Below, piece by piece: positions 844 to 14,910 of a stretch of 64,000 nucleotides of DNA. Location: NCBI RefSeq assembly GCF_016839145.1, contig NZ_CP069303.1, positions 2,666,001-2,730,000 on the forward strand. Reading direction: 5' to 3'. Numbering within the stretch: position 1 is the stretch's first letter; every line of letters begins with the position of its first letter. The notes beneath the pieces were generated by a model. It saw only the letters and a program-made list of their open reading frames with translations, was not told the origin of the DNA and searched no databases. A program made the translations under genes and the position numbers. The DNA comes from Shinella sp. PSBB067 (GTDB lineage Bacteria; Pseudomonadota; Alphaproteobacteria; Rhizobiales; Rhizobiaceae).

Positions 844-1947
844 TCACGCCTCGATGGAGACATCCCCGATGGGCCGCGAGCAGCAGGCGAGGATATAGCC
901 TTCCGCGATCTCGTCGTCGAGAATACCGCCATTGTGGCGCATCTCCACCTCGCCAGAGACCTTCATCACCCGGCAGGTGCCACAAAGCCCGCCCTCGCAG
1001 GCCGCGCCGATGCGCACACCGGCGGCGCGGGCCGTCTGCAGGATCGTCTGGCCGGGCGGGCACTTGCCCTCCTTGCCGGCCATGGTGAAGCTGACGGTGG
1101 CGACGGCGTCGGCATCGACCTCCTGCTCGCCGGCGCCGGCACGTATGGCGATTTCCTCCGGCGCGGGGGCGCTCGACGGCTGGAAGCTCTCCTCGTGATA
1201 GCGGTCCATGTTGAAGCCGCAGACCTTCAGCATGTCGCGCACACCGCGCATGAACGGTTCCGGACCGCAGCAGAAGACAGTGCGGTCCCGGAAATCCGGG
1301 GCGAGCAGCGAAAGGCGCGCCGCGTCGATGCGGCCGCGAAGGCCATGCCAGCCGTCGCGCGGATTGTGGCCCTCGACGACGAAGCCGAGCGCAAGGTTCG
1401 GCATCTGGGCGGCAAGACATTCGAGCTCGCCCTTGAACAGCAGGTCCTCCGGCTTGCGCGCGCAGGTGACGAAGGCGACGTCGGACTGCGGCGCGCAATC
1501 GGCCATCCAGCGCGTCATCGACATCATCGGCGTGACGCCCGAGCCGGCGGAGATGAAGAGATACTTCTCCGCGGGATAACGGACGAAGGAGAAGTCGCCG
1601 AGCGGCCCGAAGGCCTTCAGCTTCATGCCGGGGCGCAGGTTGTCGAACATCCAGCGCGTGCCGATGGAGTTCTTCTGCGCCTTCACCGTCACCGCGACCG
1701 AGAACGGGCGCGATGGCGAGGAGGACAGCGTGTAGGTGCGCATGACCGGCTCGTCCTCCGACACCGGCAGCTCCAGCGTGACGAACTGGCCCGGCAGATA
1801 CCGGAACCAGTTCTTCTGGTCGGAGCTGAAGGTGAAGGTCATCACATCAGCCGTTTCCACGGTGACGGCGATGCACTCCAGCAGGTTGTGGCGGTCGTGC
1901 CAGGGATTGAGTTCGTCGAAATGGTGGAAATGGCTGACGACCGTCAT
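844..1947 (-). CDS. gbcB: Betaine demethylase reductase subunit (ferredoxin-NADH reductase, GbcB-like)
   Basis: Passes electrons from NAD(P)H to the Rieske oxygenase encoded immediately upstream. The 367 residues show an FAD-binding reductase domain (RTYTLSSSP at about 70-78), an NAD-binding domain (FISAGSGVTPMM at 131-142 and CCGPEPF near 227) and a C-terminal plant-type 2Fe-2S domain with ligands C317, C322, C325 and C355 or C356. This is the architecture of GbcB and of the hybrid-cluster-protein reductase Hcr; the linkage to a GbcA-type oxygenase favours GbcB. It starts one base after the gbcA stop, so the two are almost certainly co-translated. The partner substrate (glycine betaine or proline betaine) cannot be settled from this subunit. 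Confidence 0.88.
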   Translation of the reverse strand: MTVVSHFHHFDELNPWHDRHNLLECIAVTVETADVMTFTFSSDQKNWFRYLPGQFVTLELPVSEDEPVMRTYTLSSSPSRPFSVAVTVKAQKNSIGTRWMFDNLRPGMKLKAFGPLGDFSFVRYPAEKYLFISAGSGVTPMMSMTRWMADCAPQSDVAFVTCARKPEDLLFKGELECLAAQMPNLALGFVVEGHNPRDGWHGLRGRIDAARLSLLAPDFRDRTVFCCGPEPFMRGVRDMLKVCGFNMDRYHEESFQPSSAPAPEEIAIRAGAGEQEVDADAVATVSFTMAGKEGKCPPGQTILQTARAAGVRIGAACEGGLCGTCRVMKVSGEVEMRHNGGILDDEIAEGYILACCSRPIGDVSIEA

Positions 1948-1948
1948 G

Positions 1949-3193
1949 TCACGCGACCTTGGTAAGCGGCTTCTTGGCGCCGTCGAGCCGCTCGATCATG
2001 AAGTTCGAATACCATTCGACGAACTGCATGACGCCGCCCTCGTCCTCGGCCGAGTAGGGGCCGGGCTGGTAGGCGGGCGAGCGGATGCCGAAGGCATTTT
2101 CCTCGACGATCCGGCGGTCCTGGTCGTTGGTCTCGGTCCAGACATGGGTGAGCTCGTCGAGACGGTAGTCGACGCCCTCGACCGCATCCTTGTTGACGAG
2201 CCACTTCGTCGTGACCTGCGTCAGTTCCGGGCCGAGCGGCAGCACGCGGAAGGTGATGGCGTGGTCGGCGAGGACGTGGTTCCACGTCGTCGGATAGTGG
2301 AAGAGCAGCAGCGTGCCGACATGGCTTTCCAGCATGTCGTTGGAGAGCGGGCGCTGCACCGCGCGCGCGCCGGACATGGTGTAGCTCTCGGCATCCTGGA
2401 TGAGCGGCATGCGGGCGGCGCGGAACTGGCCGGTCGGCGAGATGCGGAATTCGCTCGGCAGGCCCGCGGCCTCGCACTTCGCCCAATGCGCGGCGATGAC
2501 CGGATCGTCCTTCGCCCCTTGCACGCCGGTCGCGCTCGGCGCTTCCGGATAGGTGCGGCAGAGCTCCGGGTGGTTTGCGGCGCAGTGGTAGCACTCGCGG
2601 TTGTTCTCCCAGACGAGCTTCCAGTTGCCCTTCTCGATGATCGTGCTCTCGAAGGCGACCTTCGTCTCGCCGAGGCGGTGGCGGGCGAGATAAGGCTCGG
2701 CCGTCGAACGGAAGGCGGAAAAGTCGGGCGCCTCGTCGGCGAGGCAGATGAAGATGTAGCCGCCGACGGTCTCGCAGTGGATCTGCTTCAAGCTGTGCTG
2801 CGTCTTGTCGAAATCCTCCGCCATGTGGCGGGCAAAGAGCAGAGAGCCGTCGAGCTCGTAGGTCCACTGGTGGTAGGGACAGACGAGCTTGGCCGAAGTG
2901 CCCTTGTGCTGCGTGCACACGCGCGAACCGCGATGGCGGCAGGAATTGTGCAGCGCGCGGACGGTGCCCGAACGGTCGCGGGTGATGACGACGGGATAAT
3001 CGCCGACCTGCACGGTGAAGAAGTTGCCGGCCTTCGGGATCTCGCAGTCATGGCCGATGAACAGCCAGTCGCGATACCAGATCGTCTCGAGGTCGAGCTT
3101 GTAATGGTCGGGGTCGATATAGAAGGCCTGCTCGAGGCTGTAGCCCTCGCGCCGGTTCTTGAGCTTGCGGAGCACGTCGCTGCTGATGTCCAT
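1949..3193 (-). CDS. gbcA: Rieske oxygenase, glycine betaine / proline betaine N-demethylase (GbcA/Stc2-like)
   Basis: Predicted to remove one N-methyl group from a betaine using O2, releasing formaldehyde. The 414 residues carry the Rieske motif C85-x-H87 and C105-x2-H108 and the mononuclear iron motif NNRECYHCAANH with H203, H208 and the bridging acid E200. An acid in the C-terminal TNDQDRR segment is the likely third iron ligand. Length and motifs fit both glycine betaine monooxygenase GbcA and rhizobial stachydrine demethylase Stc2, which belong to one family, so the substrate is open. The ATG at 3193 has GAGG about 8 bases upstream. The gene is the first of a two-gene operon whose leader contains a cobalamin riboswitch. 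Confidence 0.87.
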   Translation of the reverse strand: MDISSDVLRKLKNRREGYSLEQAFYIDPDHYKLDLETIWYRDWLFIGHDCEIPKAGNFFTVQVGDYPVVITRDRSGTVRALHNSCRHRGSRVCTQHKGTSAKLVCPYHQWTYELDGSLLFARHMAEDFDKTQHSLKQIHCETVGGYIFICLADEAPDFSAFRSTAEPYLARHRLGETKVAFESTIIEKGNWKLVWENNRECYHCAANHPELCRTYPEAPSATGVQGAKDDPVIAAHWAKCEAAGLPSEFRISPTGQFRAARMPLIQDAESYTMSGARAVQRPLSNDMLESHVGTLLLFHYPTTWNHVLADHAITFRVLPLGPELTQVTTKWLVNKDAVEGVDYRLDELTHVWTETNDQDRRIVEENAFGIRSPAYQPGPYSAEDEGGVMQFVEWYSNFMIERLDGAKKPLTKVA

Positions 3194-3310
3194 GGCGGAT
3201 CCTCAACTAATCCAGATTTGGGCCGAGGCGCGCGGGAGGAGACGGCATCCGGGCGGAAGACCGCACGGGCTGCACGCTTCCCGGCCGCCCGCCGCAGCCA
3301 GTCACGATCG

Positions 3311-3536
3311 TTTCTCCAGGCTGGTTTCCGGGCTGAGGAGCGTCCTGCCGGGCCGTTCCCTTTTCGAAGCCGGACGGCTTCAAGGGTCGTGCCTTGCCTG
3401 ACCGGTGCAGCGCCTTCCCAGACCTCCCGTCCAGTGGCCGCTGCTGCACCTTGCTCCAACACCGTTGCGGGGGCAGCGCCGGACTTCAACCGGCTTCCCA
3501 ATTCTCCACCCCCCTGCGGGGGCAGCACCTTGAGTG
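3311..3536 (-). promoter_or_regulatory. Cobalamin (B12) riboswitch in the gbcA-gbcB leader
   Basis: Read on the minus strand, the segment has the conserved elements of the adenosylcobalamin aptamer in the right order: GGTGCTGCCCCC at the 5' side, GGGAAGCCGG then GTCCGGCGCTGCCCCCGCAA with ACGGT, CCACTG, TGGGAAGGCG, and finally the B12 box AGCCCGGAAACCAGCC at 3334-3319. The order, spacing and sequence make chance unlikely. The B12 box ends about 125 bases before the gbcA start. The stretch between them has a possible stem (GGCTGC with GCAGCC) that could form the expression platform. No U-tract follows it, so control at ribosome binding seems likelier than termination. Riboswitches of this class usually turn expression off when cobalamin is present. 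Confidence 0.92.
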
Positions 3537-3565
3537 TCTCCATCTAACCGCAAGCGCGGCGGCGC

Positions 3566-3588
3566 GGCATGTCGGAAAACGACATGCC
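3566..3588. promoter_or_regulatory. Perfect 9-bp inverted repeat, candidate operator of the gbcA promoter
   Basis: GGCATGTCG (3566-3574) and CGACATGCC (3580-3588) are perfect inverted copies separated by five bases. On the minus strand the repeat lies about 30 bases before the 5' end of the riboswitch aptamer, where a -35 region would be, with a TTAGAT-like -10 near 3545. This fits an activator site, for example for a betaine-responsive regulator; that identity is inference. The remaining gene-free bases, 3589-3845, are richer in A+T than the coding regions and probably hold the promoter of the plus-strand gene at 3846; I see no further gene in them. Confidence 0.55.
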
Positions 3589-3845
3589 ATTCTGATTTGA
3601 CGACAGTCAAGACGGAGCATGGAGCACAGATAGAATCCGGTTTTCTCCACTTAACTCAACTACATATGCCGATTTTCACGGCAAGCCGCCCATTCTTTCG
3701 GCACGCCCGCATCCGCGATCAGTCTCTTGTCATATTGCGACCATGATTGTGACGCGCAAAAGAAGGCAGCCGCACGGAAAGGAATGCTTAACGACGTTTT
3801 CATAAGCTTTCCGGCAATCCGGGCGCGAGGACGGGGTGTCGAAGC

Positions 3846-4451
3846 GTGCAGCAGACGAAATTCCGATACTACGACGCCGTGGCGTTCAAGCGCGCGAACC
3901 CGCCGCGCTCCGCCGTTCATACGGAATTCCTGCGCACCGGCCGCATCGAGCGCAATTTTGGCTGGAGCCCGAACGAGAAGCGCTATCTCAGCTACCAGGA
4001 GGTGGCCGAGCGGACGGGCCGCAAGCTGGAGCGGGCGGGCAACGTCACCCACGAGCGCATCAACGGCTTCCACCGATCGATCCAGTTCCCGAAGCTGATC
4101 TTCCACCGCACGCTCGCCGGGACGCCGCATCTCGGCTACTGCCACATCACGGTCGCCAATTCGCGCTTTGCGGAGTTCGACAATGTGCAATGGGCCTTCT
4201 ACATGGCCAATTTCCTGGCCGAGATCGGCGACGGGGAACAGTTTTTCGCCGGCATTTCGCAAAAGCCGGGACGCATGTATTTCGCCGTCGCCATCGCGCC
4301 GGCGGAAGATGAAGGGCGCCTGACGATCGACCGGACGGTGCGCGGCAACGGCGTCATCTTCCGCACGGACGACCCGAAGCTCGCCATGAAGAACGTGCTG
4401 ATGCTCGGTGCGCGCAACGAAACCCTGCGCAGGGCCATCGAGGCGCTCTGA
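3846..4451 (+). CDS. Conserved hypothetical protein, possibly DUF6656 family
   Basis: A 201-residue soluble protein with no signal peptide or membrane segment. I do not recognise a characterised function; the length and the N-terminal MQQTKFRYYDAV are reminiscent of the rhizobial DUF6656 family, a tentative match from memory. It has a central HLGYCHITVANSRF segment and a C-terminal half rich in short strands. Upstream lies the gbcA regulatory region on the other strand, so it probably has its own promoter. It converges with the GGDEF gene, whose stop codon is 8 bases beyond its own. Confidence 0.72.
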   Translation: MQQTKFRYYDAVAFKRANPPRSAVHTEFLRTGRIERNFGWSPNEKRYLSYQEVAERTGRKLERAGNVTHERINGFHRSIQFPKLIFHRTLAGTPHLGYCHITVANSRFAEFDNVQWAFYMANFLAEIGDGEQFFAGISQKPGRMYFAVAIAPAEDEGRLTIDRTVRGNGVIFRTDDPKLAMKNVLMLGARNETLRRAIEAL

Positions 4452-11336: not shown

Positions 11337-12290
11337 TCAGGCGAAGGGAATGGCAATCGCCAGCGCGAGGAAGATGGCAAAGCCGACGACGTGGTTGAAC
11401 TTGAACAGCGCGAGGCACTGCACCGGATCGTCGATGTCGAGCGACCGGATCTGCCAGGCGAGCATCAGCGCGGCGGCGGCAAGGCCGAGCCAGGCGATCA
11501 CGCCGACGCCGGCAAGCCAGAAGGACAGCGCGATGAGCGCCACCGTCAGGCCATAGAGGCCGATGAGCCATTGCCGCGTCTTTTCGCCGAACAGGCGCGC
11601 GGTGGAGCGCACGCCGATCAGCGCATCGTCCTCCTTGTCCTGGTGGGCGTAGATCGTGTCGTAGCCGATGGTCCAAGCGATGGCGGCGATGTAGAGCGCG
11701 ACGGGCGCCAGCGAGAGCGTGCCGAACGACGCCGCCCAGCCCATCAGCGCACCCCAGGAAAAGGCCATGCCGAGGAAGAACTGCGGCCAGTCGGTGAAGC
11801 GCTTGGCGAAGGGATAGATCGCGACGATCAGCAGCGAGGCGGTGCCGAGCCCGATGGAGAAGAGATTAAACTGCAGGAGGACGACAAGGCCGGCGAGCGC
11901 CTGCAGAGCGAGGAAGATCTTCGCCTGGCGGCGCGTGACGCGGCCCGACGGCAGCGGGCGCGAGCGGGTGCGCGCCACGGCCTGGTCGATGTCGTGGTCG
12001 ACGAGGTCGTTATAGGTGCAGCCGGCCCCGCGCATGGCGACCGAACCGATGAAGAACAGGAAGAGATGCAAGAGGAACCGCGGCCAGTCGAAGCTGCCGG
12101 CCGCCGCCCCGACATTGGCCGCCAGCGCCGCCGACCAGAAGCAGGGCCACATCAGGAGCTGCCAGCCGATCGGCCGGTCCCAGCGGGCAAGCTGCGCATA
12201 GGGCCAGGCCCCGCGCGGCAGGACGCGGTAGACCCAGTTGTCGGAAGGCGCGTCGGAGACGCGGCCGGAATCGGAAGGGGTGCTGATCAT
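11337..12290 (-). CDS. ubiA: 4-hydroxybenzoate polyprenyltransferase
   Basis: An inner-membrane enzyme that attaches the polyprenyl chain to 4-hydroxybenzoate in ubiquinone synthesis. From the ATG at 12290, which has TAGG just upstream, the protein is 317 residues with about eight hydrophobic helices. The first Asp-rich motif is NDLVDHDID (94-102) and the second is YDTIYAHQDKEDD around 205-217; both bind the Mg-diphosphate substrate. A start 15 bases earlier is open but poorly placed. It is divergent from purD with about 180 bases between them. Confidence 0.93.
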   Translation of the reverse strand: MISTPSDSGRVSDAPSDNWVYRVLPRGAWPYAQLARWDRPIGWQLLMWPCFWSAALAANVGAAAGSFDWPRFLLHLFLFFIGSVAMRGAGCTYNDLVDHDIDQAVARTRSRPLPSGRVTRRQAKIFLALQALAGLVVLLQFNLFSIGLGTASLLIVAIYPFAKRFTDWPQFFLGMAFSWGALMGWAASFGTLSLAPVALYIAAIAWTIGYDTIYAHQDKEDDALIGVRSTARLFGEKTRQWLIGLYGLTVALIALSFWLAGVGVIAWLGLAAAALMLAWQIRSLDIDDPVQCLALFKFNHVVGFAIFLALAIAIPFA

Positions 12291-12473
12291 GCACCTAGAT
12301 CGCAAGCGGCCACGCGCGGGTCAAGCCGGCGCGCGAGTCGCGGAGGCGATTCGGTTCGGCGAGAAGGCGTCGTGGCAGATCCGGGCCTGCCCCTCATGCC
12401 GCTACCGGCCCTTGACCTTTCGGCCCCGTCCCCTTAACCCGCCAGCAACAAGCATCAGGTCGAGGGTACGGGC

Positions 12474-13745
12474 ATGAAGGTTCTGTTGATCGGATCGGGC
12501 GGACGCGAGCACGCCCTTGCCTGGAAACTCGCGCAATCCCCCCTTCTCGACACGCTCTACGCCGCACCCGGCAATCCGGGCATCGCCGAATGCGCGACGC
12601 TGGTTTCCCTCGACGTCGAGGACCACGCCGCCGTCTCGGCCTTCTGCCAGGAGAACGGCGTGTCCTTCGTCGTCGTCGGCCCCGAGGCGCCGCTGGTCGC
12701 CGGCCTTGCCGACGTGCTGCGCGCCGACGGCATCGCCGTCTTCGGCCCCTCGGCCGCCGCCGCCCGGCTCGAGGGCTCCAAGGGCTTCACCAAGGACCTG
12801 TGCGCCAAGTACGACATCCCGACCGGCGCCTATCGACGCTTCACCGACGCCGCCTCCGCCAGGGCCTATATCGAGGCCGAGGGCGCCCCGATCGTCATCA
12901 AGGCGGACGGGCTTGCCGCCGGCAAGGGCGTGACCGTCGCCATGACGCTCGACGAGGCGCTCGCCGCCGTCGACGACTGCTTCGACGGCGCCTTCGGCGC
13001 GGCCGGCGCGGAAGTGGTCGTGGAAGCCTTCCTCGACGGCGAGGAGGCGAGCTTCTTCTGCCTGTGCGACGGCGTGAACGCGCTGCCGCTCGCCTCCGCA
13101 CAGGATCACAAGCGCGTCGGCGACGGCGATACCGGCCCGAACACCGGCGGCATGGGCGCCTATTCGCCGGCGCCCGTCATGACGCCCGGCATGGTAGAGC
13201 GCACGATGAAGGAGATCATCGTGCCGACGATCCGCGGCATGGCGGCGGACGGCCATCCCTTCCAGGGCGTCCTCTTCGCCGGCCTGATGATCACCGCCAA
13301 GGGTCCCGAGCTCATCGAGTACAACGTGCGTTTCGGCGATCCGGAATGCCAGGTACTGATGATGCGGCTCGAAAGCGACCTCCTGCCGATCCTGCACGCC
13401 GCCGCGGTCAGCCGGCTCGACAAGGTGACGGCCGCGTGGCGCGATGCGCCGGCCCTCACCGTCGTCATGGCCTCGAAGGGCTATCCGGGCGCTTACGAGA
13501 AGAACACGCCGATCCTTTCGCTGCCGGCCGACGACGCCGCCACCAAGGTGTTCCATGCCGGCACGGCCCTGAAGGACGGCAAGCTGGTCGCGACCGGCGG
13601 GCGCGTATTGAACGTCACCGCCGTGGCGCCGACGGTCGGCGAGGCGCAAAGGGCGGCCTATGCGGCGCTCGACCGGGTGGTATGGGACAACGGCTTCTGC
13701 CGCCGCGACATCGGCTGGCGGGCAGTGGCCCGCGAAAAGGCCTGA
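12474..13745 (+). CDS. purD: Phosphoribosylamine-glycine ligase (GAR synthetase)
   Basis: Second step of purine synthesis: joins glycine to 5-phosphoribosylamine with ATP. The 423 residues match the family length. The N-terminal domain begins [19 protein letters not shown]; the ATP-grasp domain shows [14 protein letters not shown] near 140-155, [13 protein letters not shown] around 220, and [13 protein letters not shown] near 280 with the metal ligands. The gene appears monocistronic, between divergent ubiA and a small secreted-protein gene. Confidence 0.97.
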
Positions 13746-13752
13746 CCGCAGC

Positions 13753-13770
13753 CGGCGAAAAACGCCGTTT
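13753..13770 (+). terminator. Weak hairpin after purD
   Basis: CGGCG, AAAAA, CGCCG then TTT lie 8 bases after the purD stop. The stem is only 5 bp with a short T-run, so it is a weak candidate terminator. Confidence 0.45.
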
Positions 13771-13850
13771 GCTCAAATTTTACCATTTCCCCTGACGGGA
13801 CCGTAACCGACGGGCGCTAGTCTTCTCCCAACGATGAGGGAGTTCCGTCG

Positions 13851-14315
13851 ATGCGTAGCCTGCTGCCGACCATTGCTTTCATGCTTCTCGCCGCCCCAGC
13901 CCTTGCGGATTCGATCCATCCCGTCGCCGGCACCACCTCGGCCGGCAGTATCGAGGCGATACGCTGCGACGACTGCCCGGCGCTGAAGCCGAAGCTGAAA
14001 GCCGCGACATACCATGTCGACGCCATCGCCCCCGGCACGCAGAAGGTGGAGATCCGGGAAGAGAACGGCGAGCGCAAGATCTACCGGACGGAGGCCTGGA
14101 TGGGCGGGTCCCCCGTGCTCTTCGTCAGCAAGGCAGCGCCCGGAACGGTCGAAGCCGCCACCGCGGAAAAAACCGAGGTCGGCAACGCGGTCACCGTCGA
14201 TGCGGGCGCCAAGACCAGCGCGCTCGGCGAGAGCGCGGCGCAGGACGCCCGGACGGCCGCGATGGCGTCTTCACGGGAGTTTGATCCGGCAACGTTTGAA
14301 CTCCGGCTCAACTGA
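13851..14315 (+). CDS. Small secreted protein, HPE1-like
   Basis: A 154-residue protein with a Sec signal peptide (MRSLLPTIAFMLLAAPALA, cut after residue 19 or so). The mature part has a close Cys pair (RCDDCPAL) and an acidic, alanine-rich C-terminal half. I connect it from memory with rhizobial proteins labelled plant virulence effector HPE1-like, but that label says little about function and the match is tentative. The ATG has GAGGGAG about 8 bases upstream. It is monocistronic. Confidence 0.7.
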   Translation: MRSLLPTIAFMLLAAPALADSIHPVAGTTSAGSIEAIRCDDCPALKPKLKAATYHVDAIAPGTQKVEIREENGERKIYRTEAWMGGSPVLFVSKAAPGTVEAATAEKTEVGNAVTVDAGAKTSALGESAAQDARTAAMASSREFDPATFELRLN

Positions 14316-14381
14316 GCCCATATTGGGTGGCCCTGCCTCTCAGTCCCTCCAGGCTGACAGGAATCCGCGAAAGCGGACGTT

Positions 14382-14409
14382 TGCGCCCCTGACCTCAAGC
14401 AGGGGCGCA
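14382..14409 (-). terminator. Hairpin ending the glyS-DUF523 transcript
   Basis: TGCGCCCCTG (14382-14391) pairs perfectly with CAGGGGCGCA (14400-14409) over an 8-base loop. It lies just after the DUF523 stop codon on the minus strand. No long T-run follows, so it could also be a transcript-stabilising stem. Confidence 0.55.
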
Positions 14410-14415
14410 CGCGTA

Positions 14416-14910
14416 TCAGCCGGCCTCCCCCATGTCGCCGACGAGCCTGTCGACCTCGCGGTCCGAATAGACGGCGATGCCGTTTCGCCGCAGCAGGGCC
14501 GCCGTCACGCCCTGTCCGGCATGGCGTGCGCCGGAGAAACTGCCGTCATAGACGAAACCGGAACCGCAGGACGGGCTGCCGTCGATCAGCAGCGCGTGCC
14601 GGCAGCCGTTCTCGCGCGCCACGGCGAGCGCAATGCGCGCGCCCTCGATATAGGCGGCCGAGACGTCACCGCCGGAAATCTCCAGCACGCGTGCCCGTCC
14701 GTCGAGCACGTCGTCGCCGTCGAGGCCGTTCTCGATCTCCGCGGGCGGCCGCGGCACCTGGAAGCCGCCGGCAAGCTCCGGGCACAGCGTCACCAGCCGT
14801 CCCTCGGCCTTCCAGCGCTCGACGGCCGCATGCATGAGCGGCTTTGCCGATCCGTTGTAGCGGACCGGCAGGCCCGCAAGGCAGGCGCTGATGAGGATCC
14901 TGCCGGCCAT
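14416..14910 (-). CDS. DUF523 domain protein
   Basis: A 164-residue protein starting at the ATG at 14910 (MAGRILISACLAGLPVRYNG). It shows the DUF523 pattern: an SACLxGxxVRYNG start, LCPELAGGFQVPRPPAEI near 43-60 and DGSPSCGSGFVYDGSF near 108-123, with conserved cysteines that could bind a metal. The family's function is not established. It begins 13 bases after glyS on the same strand and probably shares its transcript. Confidence 0.85.
   Translation of the reverse strand: MAGRILISACLAGLPVRYNGSAKPLMHAAVERWKAEGRLVTLCPELAGGFQVPRPPAEIENGLDGDDVLDGRARVLEISGGDVSAAYIEGARIALAVARENGCRHALLIDGSPSCGSGFVYDGSFSGARHAGQGVTAALLRRNGIAVYSDREVDRLVGDMGEAG

Follow-up and report, generated by a model that had tools for sequence, protein, structure and literature searches.

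A cobalamin riboswitch precedes a gbcA-like betaine demethylase operon of Shinella and accompanies a corrinoid demethylation system in Rhizobiaceae

A cobalamin riboswitch in the leader of a Rieske demethylase operon

A cobalamin riboswitch lies before a gbcA-gbcB-like operon of Shinella sp. PSBB067, and among related genomes its presence is coupled to that of MtgC, the corrinoid protein of MtgBCD-type betaine demethylation. Judged from sequence comparison, the leader very probably acts as an OFF switch that responds to B12 and controls the B12-free branch of betaine catabolism, in which GbcAB would back up the corrinoid route. The window analysed is the whole 64,000-nt stretch of contig NZ_CP069303.1 (positions 2,666,001 to 2,730,000).

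The original prediction had placed a full cobalamin aptamer, in the sense orientation, before gbcA-gbcB, and scoring with the Rfam model bore this out. A cmscan search matched RF00174 (model positions 1-189) at window positions 3547-3302 on the (-) strand with 88.7 bits and an E value of 1.4e-20, well over the gathering score of 31.5 bits at which membership is assigned; it was the sole Rfam match at the gathering threshold in the window. The aptamer (3302..3547, (-) strand) is full length and ends 108 nt 5' of the gbcA-like ATG (3193). A second model, R1, which was built from eight other riboswitches of the Shinella genome and included no gbcA leader, also detected it, with a modest 48.7 bits. 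An insert of about 50 nt in the window aptamer is common to the leaders L018 and L019 and is missing in the other seven aligned leaders, so that it is present in 3 of 10.

Conservation of the structure was analysed in 72 R1 matches (70 distinct), namely 70 gbcA leaders, the window and one further match in L051. Both sides were altered in 14 of the 27 pairs, with 200 such cells compared to 72 in shuffles, and 92% of cells were paired; none of 500 shuffles was as high. These values come from related sequences in an alignment fitted to the R1 model. We assign the gbcA leader RNA to RF00174 as a conserved and covarying structure, of which cobalamin is the expected ligand.

The Rieske demethylase and its reductase

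The first gene (1949..3193, (-) strand) encodes a gbcA-like Rieske quaternary-amine demethylase of 414 aa with the Pfam domains Rieske and Ring_hydroxyl_A. The second (844..1947, (-) strand), whose ORF starts 1 nt after the first, encodes a gbcB-like FAD/2Fe-2S reductase of 367 aa with FAD_binding_6, NAD_binding_1 and Fer2. Past the reductase gene, the opposite strand carries the end of lysS, and the divergent neighbour of the operon encodes a DUF6656 protein (window 3846-4451, (+) strand). Close relatives among the matches listed (best 120 proteins, best 80 loci) were those of Shinella.

The names gbcA and gbcB held in part. The best NCBIfam matches were indeed GbcA (NF058607, 512.1 bits) and GbcB (NF058606, 386.7 bits), but the curated equivalog cut-offs of 670 and 500 bits were missed; a second GbcA orthologue likewise fell below the NF058607 cut-off, with 523.6 bits. 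Since both scores are under the cut-offs, "gbcA-gbcB" is a good guess and no certified equivalog. The solved chains closest to the Rieske protein were 3n0q (546 bits), a putative dioxygenase, and 3vca/4qup (520 bits), which we take to be Stc2.

The active-site stretch of the Rieske protein holds N198, E200, C201 and C204, placed by local motif rather than by structural alignment. According to the available portions of PMC7948474 and PMC10952381, the group Vb demethylases of glycine betaine and proline betaine have an Asn at the position of CntA Tyr203, a bridging Glu and a Cys pair. The Shinella protein combines the Rieske and mononuclear-iron domains with an Asn in place of Tyr/Phe, the Glu and the Cys pair, and on this pattern we call it a GbcA-like betaine demethylase, the substrate of which would be glycine betaine or proline betaine. 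As far as the same portions describe them, the group Vb enzymes GbcAB of Pseudomonas and Chromohalobacter and Stc2 of S. meliloti share this domain architecture and the Asn/Glu/Cys pair. Unlike them, the Shinella protein stays below the GbcA cut-off and is encoded behind a B12 riboswitch.

A betaine-type corrinoid system in the same genome

The original prediction had also supposed that an MttB-family methyltransferase with a corrinoid protein would provide the B12-dependent alternative, and a betaine-type corrinoid system is present in the Shinella genome by homology. One of four MttB-family proteins, an MtgB-like protein, is encoded at C2:1766091-1767659; it matched Pfam MTTB only, with the trimethylamine model at 284 bits compared to a cut-off of 525. 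Divergent from its gene is that of an MtgC-like protein, a two-domain, B12-binding protein of the corrinoid type that scored under both MtgC cut-offs (215 vs 370 and 177 vs 310 bits). The MtgC-like gene is followed by genes for DUF1638, an MTHFR-like protein, an MtgD-like methyl-THF:corrinoid methyltransferase (398 bits, over the cut-off of 259) and a RACo activase. The MttB-family, corrinoid and methyl-THF methyltransferase proteins and the activase of an MtgBCD system were thereby found by homology in one locus. A gene for a GbdR-like regulator (354 bits, under the cut-off of 480) adjoins this locus, and mtgB is separated from cobN, cobB and cobQ by about 13-28 kb.

The best match to this system, which the prediction had not named, is the aerobic MtgBCD betaine demethylase described in 2025; in the available part of that report, it is demonstrated in Ruegeria and noted in S. 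meliloti, where mtgBCDE lies beside a cobalamin operon (PMC12478193). The Shinella set of an MttB-family protein, MtgC-like and MtgD-like proteins, DUF1638 and RACo is similar to what this part gives for MtgBCDE of Ruegeria pomeroyi, which serves glycine betaine demethylation and methionine synthesis, and the Shinella proteins would act as those of Ruegeria do. GbcAB is discussed there for bacteria without MtgBCDE, whereas Shinella has both in one genome. The available text of PMC12478193 places no riboswitch on gbcAB, and the sole occurrence of "riboswitch" in its main text is the title of a cited SAR11 paper. In the open-access literature, we found no report of a betaine demethylase gene led by a cobalamin riboswitch; one paper, on a denitrifying reactor, mentions both a cobalamin riboswitch and formaldehyde dehydrogenase, and a line in a table of the older B12-element surveys is possible. 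A B12 switch on gbcAB therefore seems undescribed.

The same switch might instead serve another betaine, such as proline betaine, with another MttB-family protein that shares MtgC as the counterpart. Proline betaine is possible because GbcA and GbcB are under their curated cut-offs (512 vs 670 bits for NF058607), 3vca/4qup, presumably Stc2, is about as close at 520 bits, and there are four MttB-family proteins to choose from. On the other hand, the GbdR-like regulator beside the mtg locus and a BHMT-like gene in an fdhA operon of genome G063 (see below) both point to glycine betaine, although neither is a proof. We consider this compatible variant unlikely, but worth keeping in mind.

The riboswitch is coupled to MtgC among relatives

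Set A was drawn as 121 Rhizobiaceae genomes, 54 of which had a GbcA-like protein at E 1e-100 and 43, Shinella included, an orthologue with at least 65% identity. The GbcA regions were searched with R1, since gbcA leaders score lower in the RF00174 survey. The homologues indeed carried the leader in many cases: R1 matched it in 28 of 43 (27 of the 42 other regions plus the window). MtgC was found in 27 of the 28 genomes with a match, compared to 1 of the 15 without (Fisher 2.8e-9, ignoring kinship), and the MtgB orthologue was split in the same way. Set B consisted of the 80 nearest loci in named genomes, not randomly drawn, 79 of which were testable (L068, with 41 nt upstream, was dropped). 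R1 matched 70 of the 79 leaders, and MtgC was found in 66 of these 70 compared to 2 of the other 9 (Fisher 3.7e-6, again ignoring kinship). A B12-dependent counterpart in the same genome, as expected of an isozyme pair, was therefore found in 27/28 and 66/70 of the genomes with the riboswitch. The exceptions with MtgC and no gbcA riboswitch were three, G102, L067 and L070.

Rfam likewise gave no match in ten of the 15 set A leaders that are riboswitch-free by R1; three others were called by R1 alone, and two have the same GbcA as the Rfam-negative L027 and L039. A genome survey with RF00174 counted between one and five cobalamin riboswitches away from gbcA in each of these 15 genomes; its filters were stricter and no more than 19 candidates per genome were scored, which makes absences soft. 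These genomes are therefore still under B12 control.

The two sets partly overlap, and seven duplicate GbcA rows were dropped from the tree, which is a GbcA tree of 115 rows and follows the gene rather than the species. It gave seven independent supported contrasts in MtgC; the riboswitch was concordant in 6.5 of them on average and opposed in none (median sign-test p 0.0156, range 0.0156-0.0625). When contrasts were taken on the riboswitch side, 6.3 of 7 were concordant (median p 0.031, range 0.0156-0.125). Seven contrasts are few, and MtgC may track another shared trait.

Five gbcAB loci (L186-L190), chosen for a second riboswitch nearby and not a sample, were inspected for their company. 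The riboswitch-led neighbours of gbcAB were nrdAB in L186 and L187, metE in L186 and L188, a MesD/MesX pair in L187 and a TonB receptor in L190. In L189, the second riboswitch lies between an ORF and a 1277-aa ORF taken for metH by eye. Together with the corrinoid system in the genome and the coupling of riboswitch and MtgC, the metE and nrdAB neighbours support the predicted isozyme pattern of GbcAB versus a corrinoid route. Alternatively, betaine could supply cobalamin synthesis with methyl groups and glycine, and the switch would then limit precursors when B12 is plentiful. The available portion of PMC8123684 describes a stimulation of industrial B12 production by betaine, and cobN, cobB and cobQ are in the Shinella genome. 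However, the riboswitch tracks MtgC, the riboswitch-free set A genomes keep their other cobalamin riboswitches, and the neighbours at the loci chosen for a second riboswitch are mostly metE, nrd and fdhA, not cob. We rate such feedback on B12 supply as very improbable compared to a backup of the corrinoid route by GbcAB.

Outside the orthologues, none of 14 GbcA-like places with at most 58% identity in the family draw had a riboswitch by R1. A draw from the class (385 genomes, at most 4 candidates scored a genome, so that absences are soft) gave 11 genomes, Shinella included, with a homologue at E 1e-130. Among the 10 homologues from other families, at 49-67% identity, 6 had a cobalamin riboswitch upstream. 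Since the riboswitch was found in 0/14 inside the family and 6/10 outside it, identity alone does not fix its limit. In one other-family genome, two divergent cobalamin riboswitches lie upstream of the gbcA homologue (L193 2877-3366).

Loss and probable decay of the aptamer

Rhizobium freirei and R. lusitanum SEMIA 4060 have no MtgC, and, judged against intact relatives, their leaders keep both ends of the riboswitch but have lost some 105 nt of its core. Four set B leaders from genomes without MtgC (L047, L049, L052 and L069) still scored with R1, at 44-50 bits. They have lost the GCCACTG...GGGAAGG part, and other letters that six other aligned leaders keep are altered. Three of the four were given to Rfam and scored 56-58 bits, still over the gathering score. 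From the alignment, we read these four aptamers as probably decayed.

An intact-aptamer motif, defined after the exceptions were seen, was present in none of the rows without MtgC (0/15 in set A, 0/11 in set B, 0/23 non-redundant) and in 23/28 and 63/68 of the rows with MtgC in sets A and B, respectively. Seven leaders from genomes with MtgC match R1 yet fail the motif, and one of them, L129 (47.1 bits), is as weak as the four damaged ones.

These losses bear on whether the leader is simply inherited, its association with MtgC reflecting shared ancestry or a general B12 lifestyle with no functional coupling. That there are only seven independent contrasts and that some genomes with MtgC are without the switch would fit such an origin. 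The changes in the tree contrasts are concordant, however, the aptamer core is deleted or damaged in genomes without MtgC, B12 riboswitches occur elsewhere in the riboswitch-free set A genomes, and the same pattern of riboswitch and MtgC is seen at fdhA. Mere inheritance of the leader has in our view little to recommend it, and a switch functionally coupled to the corrinoid route is the reading we retain.

Expression platform and upstream repeat

Between the aptamer and the start codon lies a hairpin, GGCUGC-GGCGG-GCGGCC (3283..3299, (-) strand). Platforms were compared in 67 of 71 leaders; the four damaged leaders (L047, L049, L052 and L069) lacked the motif used for cutting. A 6+5+6 hairpin with at least five pairs was found in 62 of the 67, with 14 different stem pairings, and the loop was GGCGG in 60 and GGUGG in 2, which means a near-constant loop on a varied stem. 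By eye, the GGYGG-loop hairpin also occurs in the fdhA and DUF6925 leaders of the Shinella genome, and the cores of the three riboswitches are similar.

The presumed target of the switch is a Shine-Dalgarno-like GAGGAU (3199..3204, (-) strand) before the gbcA start. An SD-like 4-mer was present in 66 of 67 leaders, with a mean predicted pairing of 0.72 when the platform was folded alone; the fold of the window platform was weakly better than shuffles (z -1.6). A terminator mechanism was considered and rejected, the only terminator-like site in 3150-3720 being on the other strand, at 3566-3588, where it coincides with the upstream inverted repeat. TTTTT occurs in the platform of 4 of 67 leaders. 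Since there is no terminator-like site on the (-) strand and an SD-like sequence in 66/67 leaders, the switch most likely acts on translation initiation. A sigma-70 promoter match was looked for at the gbcA leader, and none was found.

Upstream of the aptamer is a direct repeat, TGTCG-N16-TGTCG (3580..3605, (-) strand), a presumed activator site, the second half-site of which is held in a 9-bp inverted repeat (3566-3588). The 21-nt spacing is conserved: 71 neighbouring TGTCG pairs had it in 79 leaders with and without the riboswitch (L046, short upstream, was left out). The repeat also precedes the fdhA and DUF6925 riboswitches of the Shinella genome (G000) and fdhA in G106. It occurs nine times in 282,514 bp of G000 pieces, compared to 0.85 expected, three times before the gbcA, fdhA and DUF6925 riboswitches and six times elsewhere. 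The 21-nt repeat and the GbdR-like gene beside the mtg locus suggest a betaine-responsive activator, and the repeat is presumably the operator of such a GbdR-like protein.

fdhA and a proposed switch between two demethylation routes

RF00174 has 11 places in the Shinella genome, 10 of them over the cut-off. The genes behind these riboswitches include nrdE, metE, metH, fdhA and CbtA, over NCBIfam cut-offs, and relatives of a TonB B12 receptor, an ABC ATPase and an ABC binding protein, under them; Pfam names DUF6925 behind one. The fdhA product, a glutathione-independent formaldehyde dehydrogenase, scored 711 bits (cut-off 637), and its own riboswitch is of a type similar to that of gbcA. In the 121 genomes, fdhA was found in 14, namely 13 of the 43 with a gbcA orthologue compared to 1 of the 78 others, with at most 15 candidates scored a genome and absences accordingly soft. 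A riboswitch stood before fdhA or its operon in 3 of 3 genomes with MtgC compared to 0 of 11 without. In G063 (L174 2614-5283), it heads an apparent operon of a BHMT-like gene and fdhA; the first gene product matched mammalian BHMT with 212 bits and the NCBIfam BHMT model with 94 bits, compared to a cut-off of 338. The available part of PMC12478193 gives formaldehyde as released by GbcAB, and fdhA under the same control fits because of this release.

GbcAB, together with FdhA, is most likely a B12-free backup of the corrinoid route. When B12 is present, betaine would be demethylated by MtgB-MtgC-MtgD, with the methyl group passing to the corrinoid and then to tetrahydrofolate, and the riboswitch would turn gbcAB off, most likely by blocking the translation start. 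When B12 is absent, the corrinoid route would stall and the switch would open; GbcAB would then take the methyl group off with O2 and NADH and release it as formaldehyde. In genomes that own fdhA, the riboswitch-led formaldehyde dehydrogenase would be switched on as well. The 21-nt-spaced repeat, presumably bound by a GbdR-like activator, would add the signal that betaine is present.

The cobalamin riboswitches of metE and nrdAB/nrdEF belong to the same RNA family and follow the same logic as the gbcA leader, and metE, nrdE and gbcA riboswitches coexist in the Shinella genome and lie close together in others. In contrast to these, the target here would act in catabolism, as a demethylase, rather than in biosynthesis, and its counterpart would be a multi-protein corrinoid system. 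If this is true, a catabolic step joins the jobs for which a riboswitch chooses between B12-dependent and B12-free enzymes, and GbcAB and MtgBCD stand together under one switch in Rhizobiaceae, including Sinorhizobium medicae (L056). Loss of the aptamer along with the B12-dependent partner amounts to a natural experiment, and a test for coupling between riboswitch and partner could reveal other hidden isozyme pairs.

Further genes behind cobalamin riboswitches

We lean, with some reserve, towards a wider two-signal regulon, in which a betaine activator and a B12 riboswitch of one subtype would control gbcAB, fdhA, DUF6925 and one BHMT-like-fdhA operon, the aptamer being deleted or decaying where MtgBCD is lost, and in which the DUF6925 protein would have a hitherto overlooked role in betaine or one-carbon metabolism without B12. 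In L173, metE, nrdEF, fdhA and the DUF6925 gene follow four riboswitches in one row. The DUF6925 genes (L101 13160-14601, G000 C2:1305159; L173 3090-4835) are preceded by a cobalamin riboswitch closely resembling the fdhA one; the gene is near metE in G000 and adjoins fdhA in G106. For DUF6925, 905 homologues were found, and the best 120 of the 905 are named only DUF6925, hypothetical or uncharacterized. A part for it in B12-free metabolism is possible.

A cobalamin riboswitch was also seen before the B12-dependent metH of the Shinella genome, with an ORF of about 70 codons between them (L102 5810-6422, G000 C2:3648809). A repressing switch on metH would be odd, and the short ORF may be the real target. 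Near gbcAB in L187, a MesD-type core methionine synthase and MesX (12252-14599) lie behind a cobalamin riboswitch, and by their sequence and position they appear to be another B12-free methionine route under B12 control. Furthermore, a second, distant GbcA-like Rieske oxygenase was encountered at L101 8318-9547 and L187 10393-11649 (264 and 273 bits with the GbcA model, respectively); in G000 its gene stops shortly ahead of the metE riboswitch, and in G062 it lies directly behind gbcAB.
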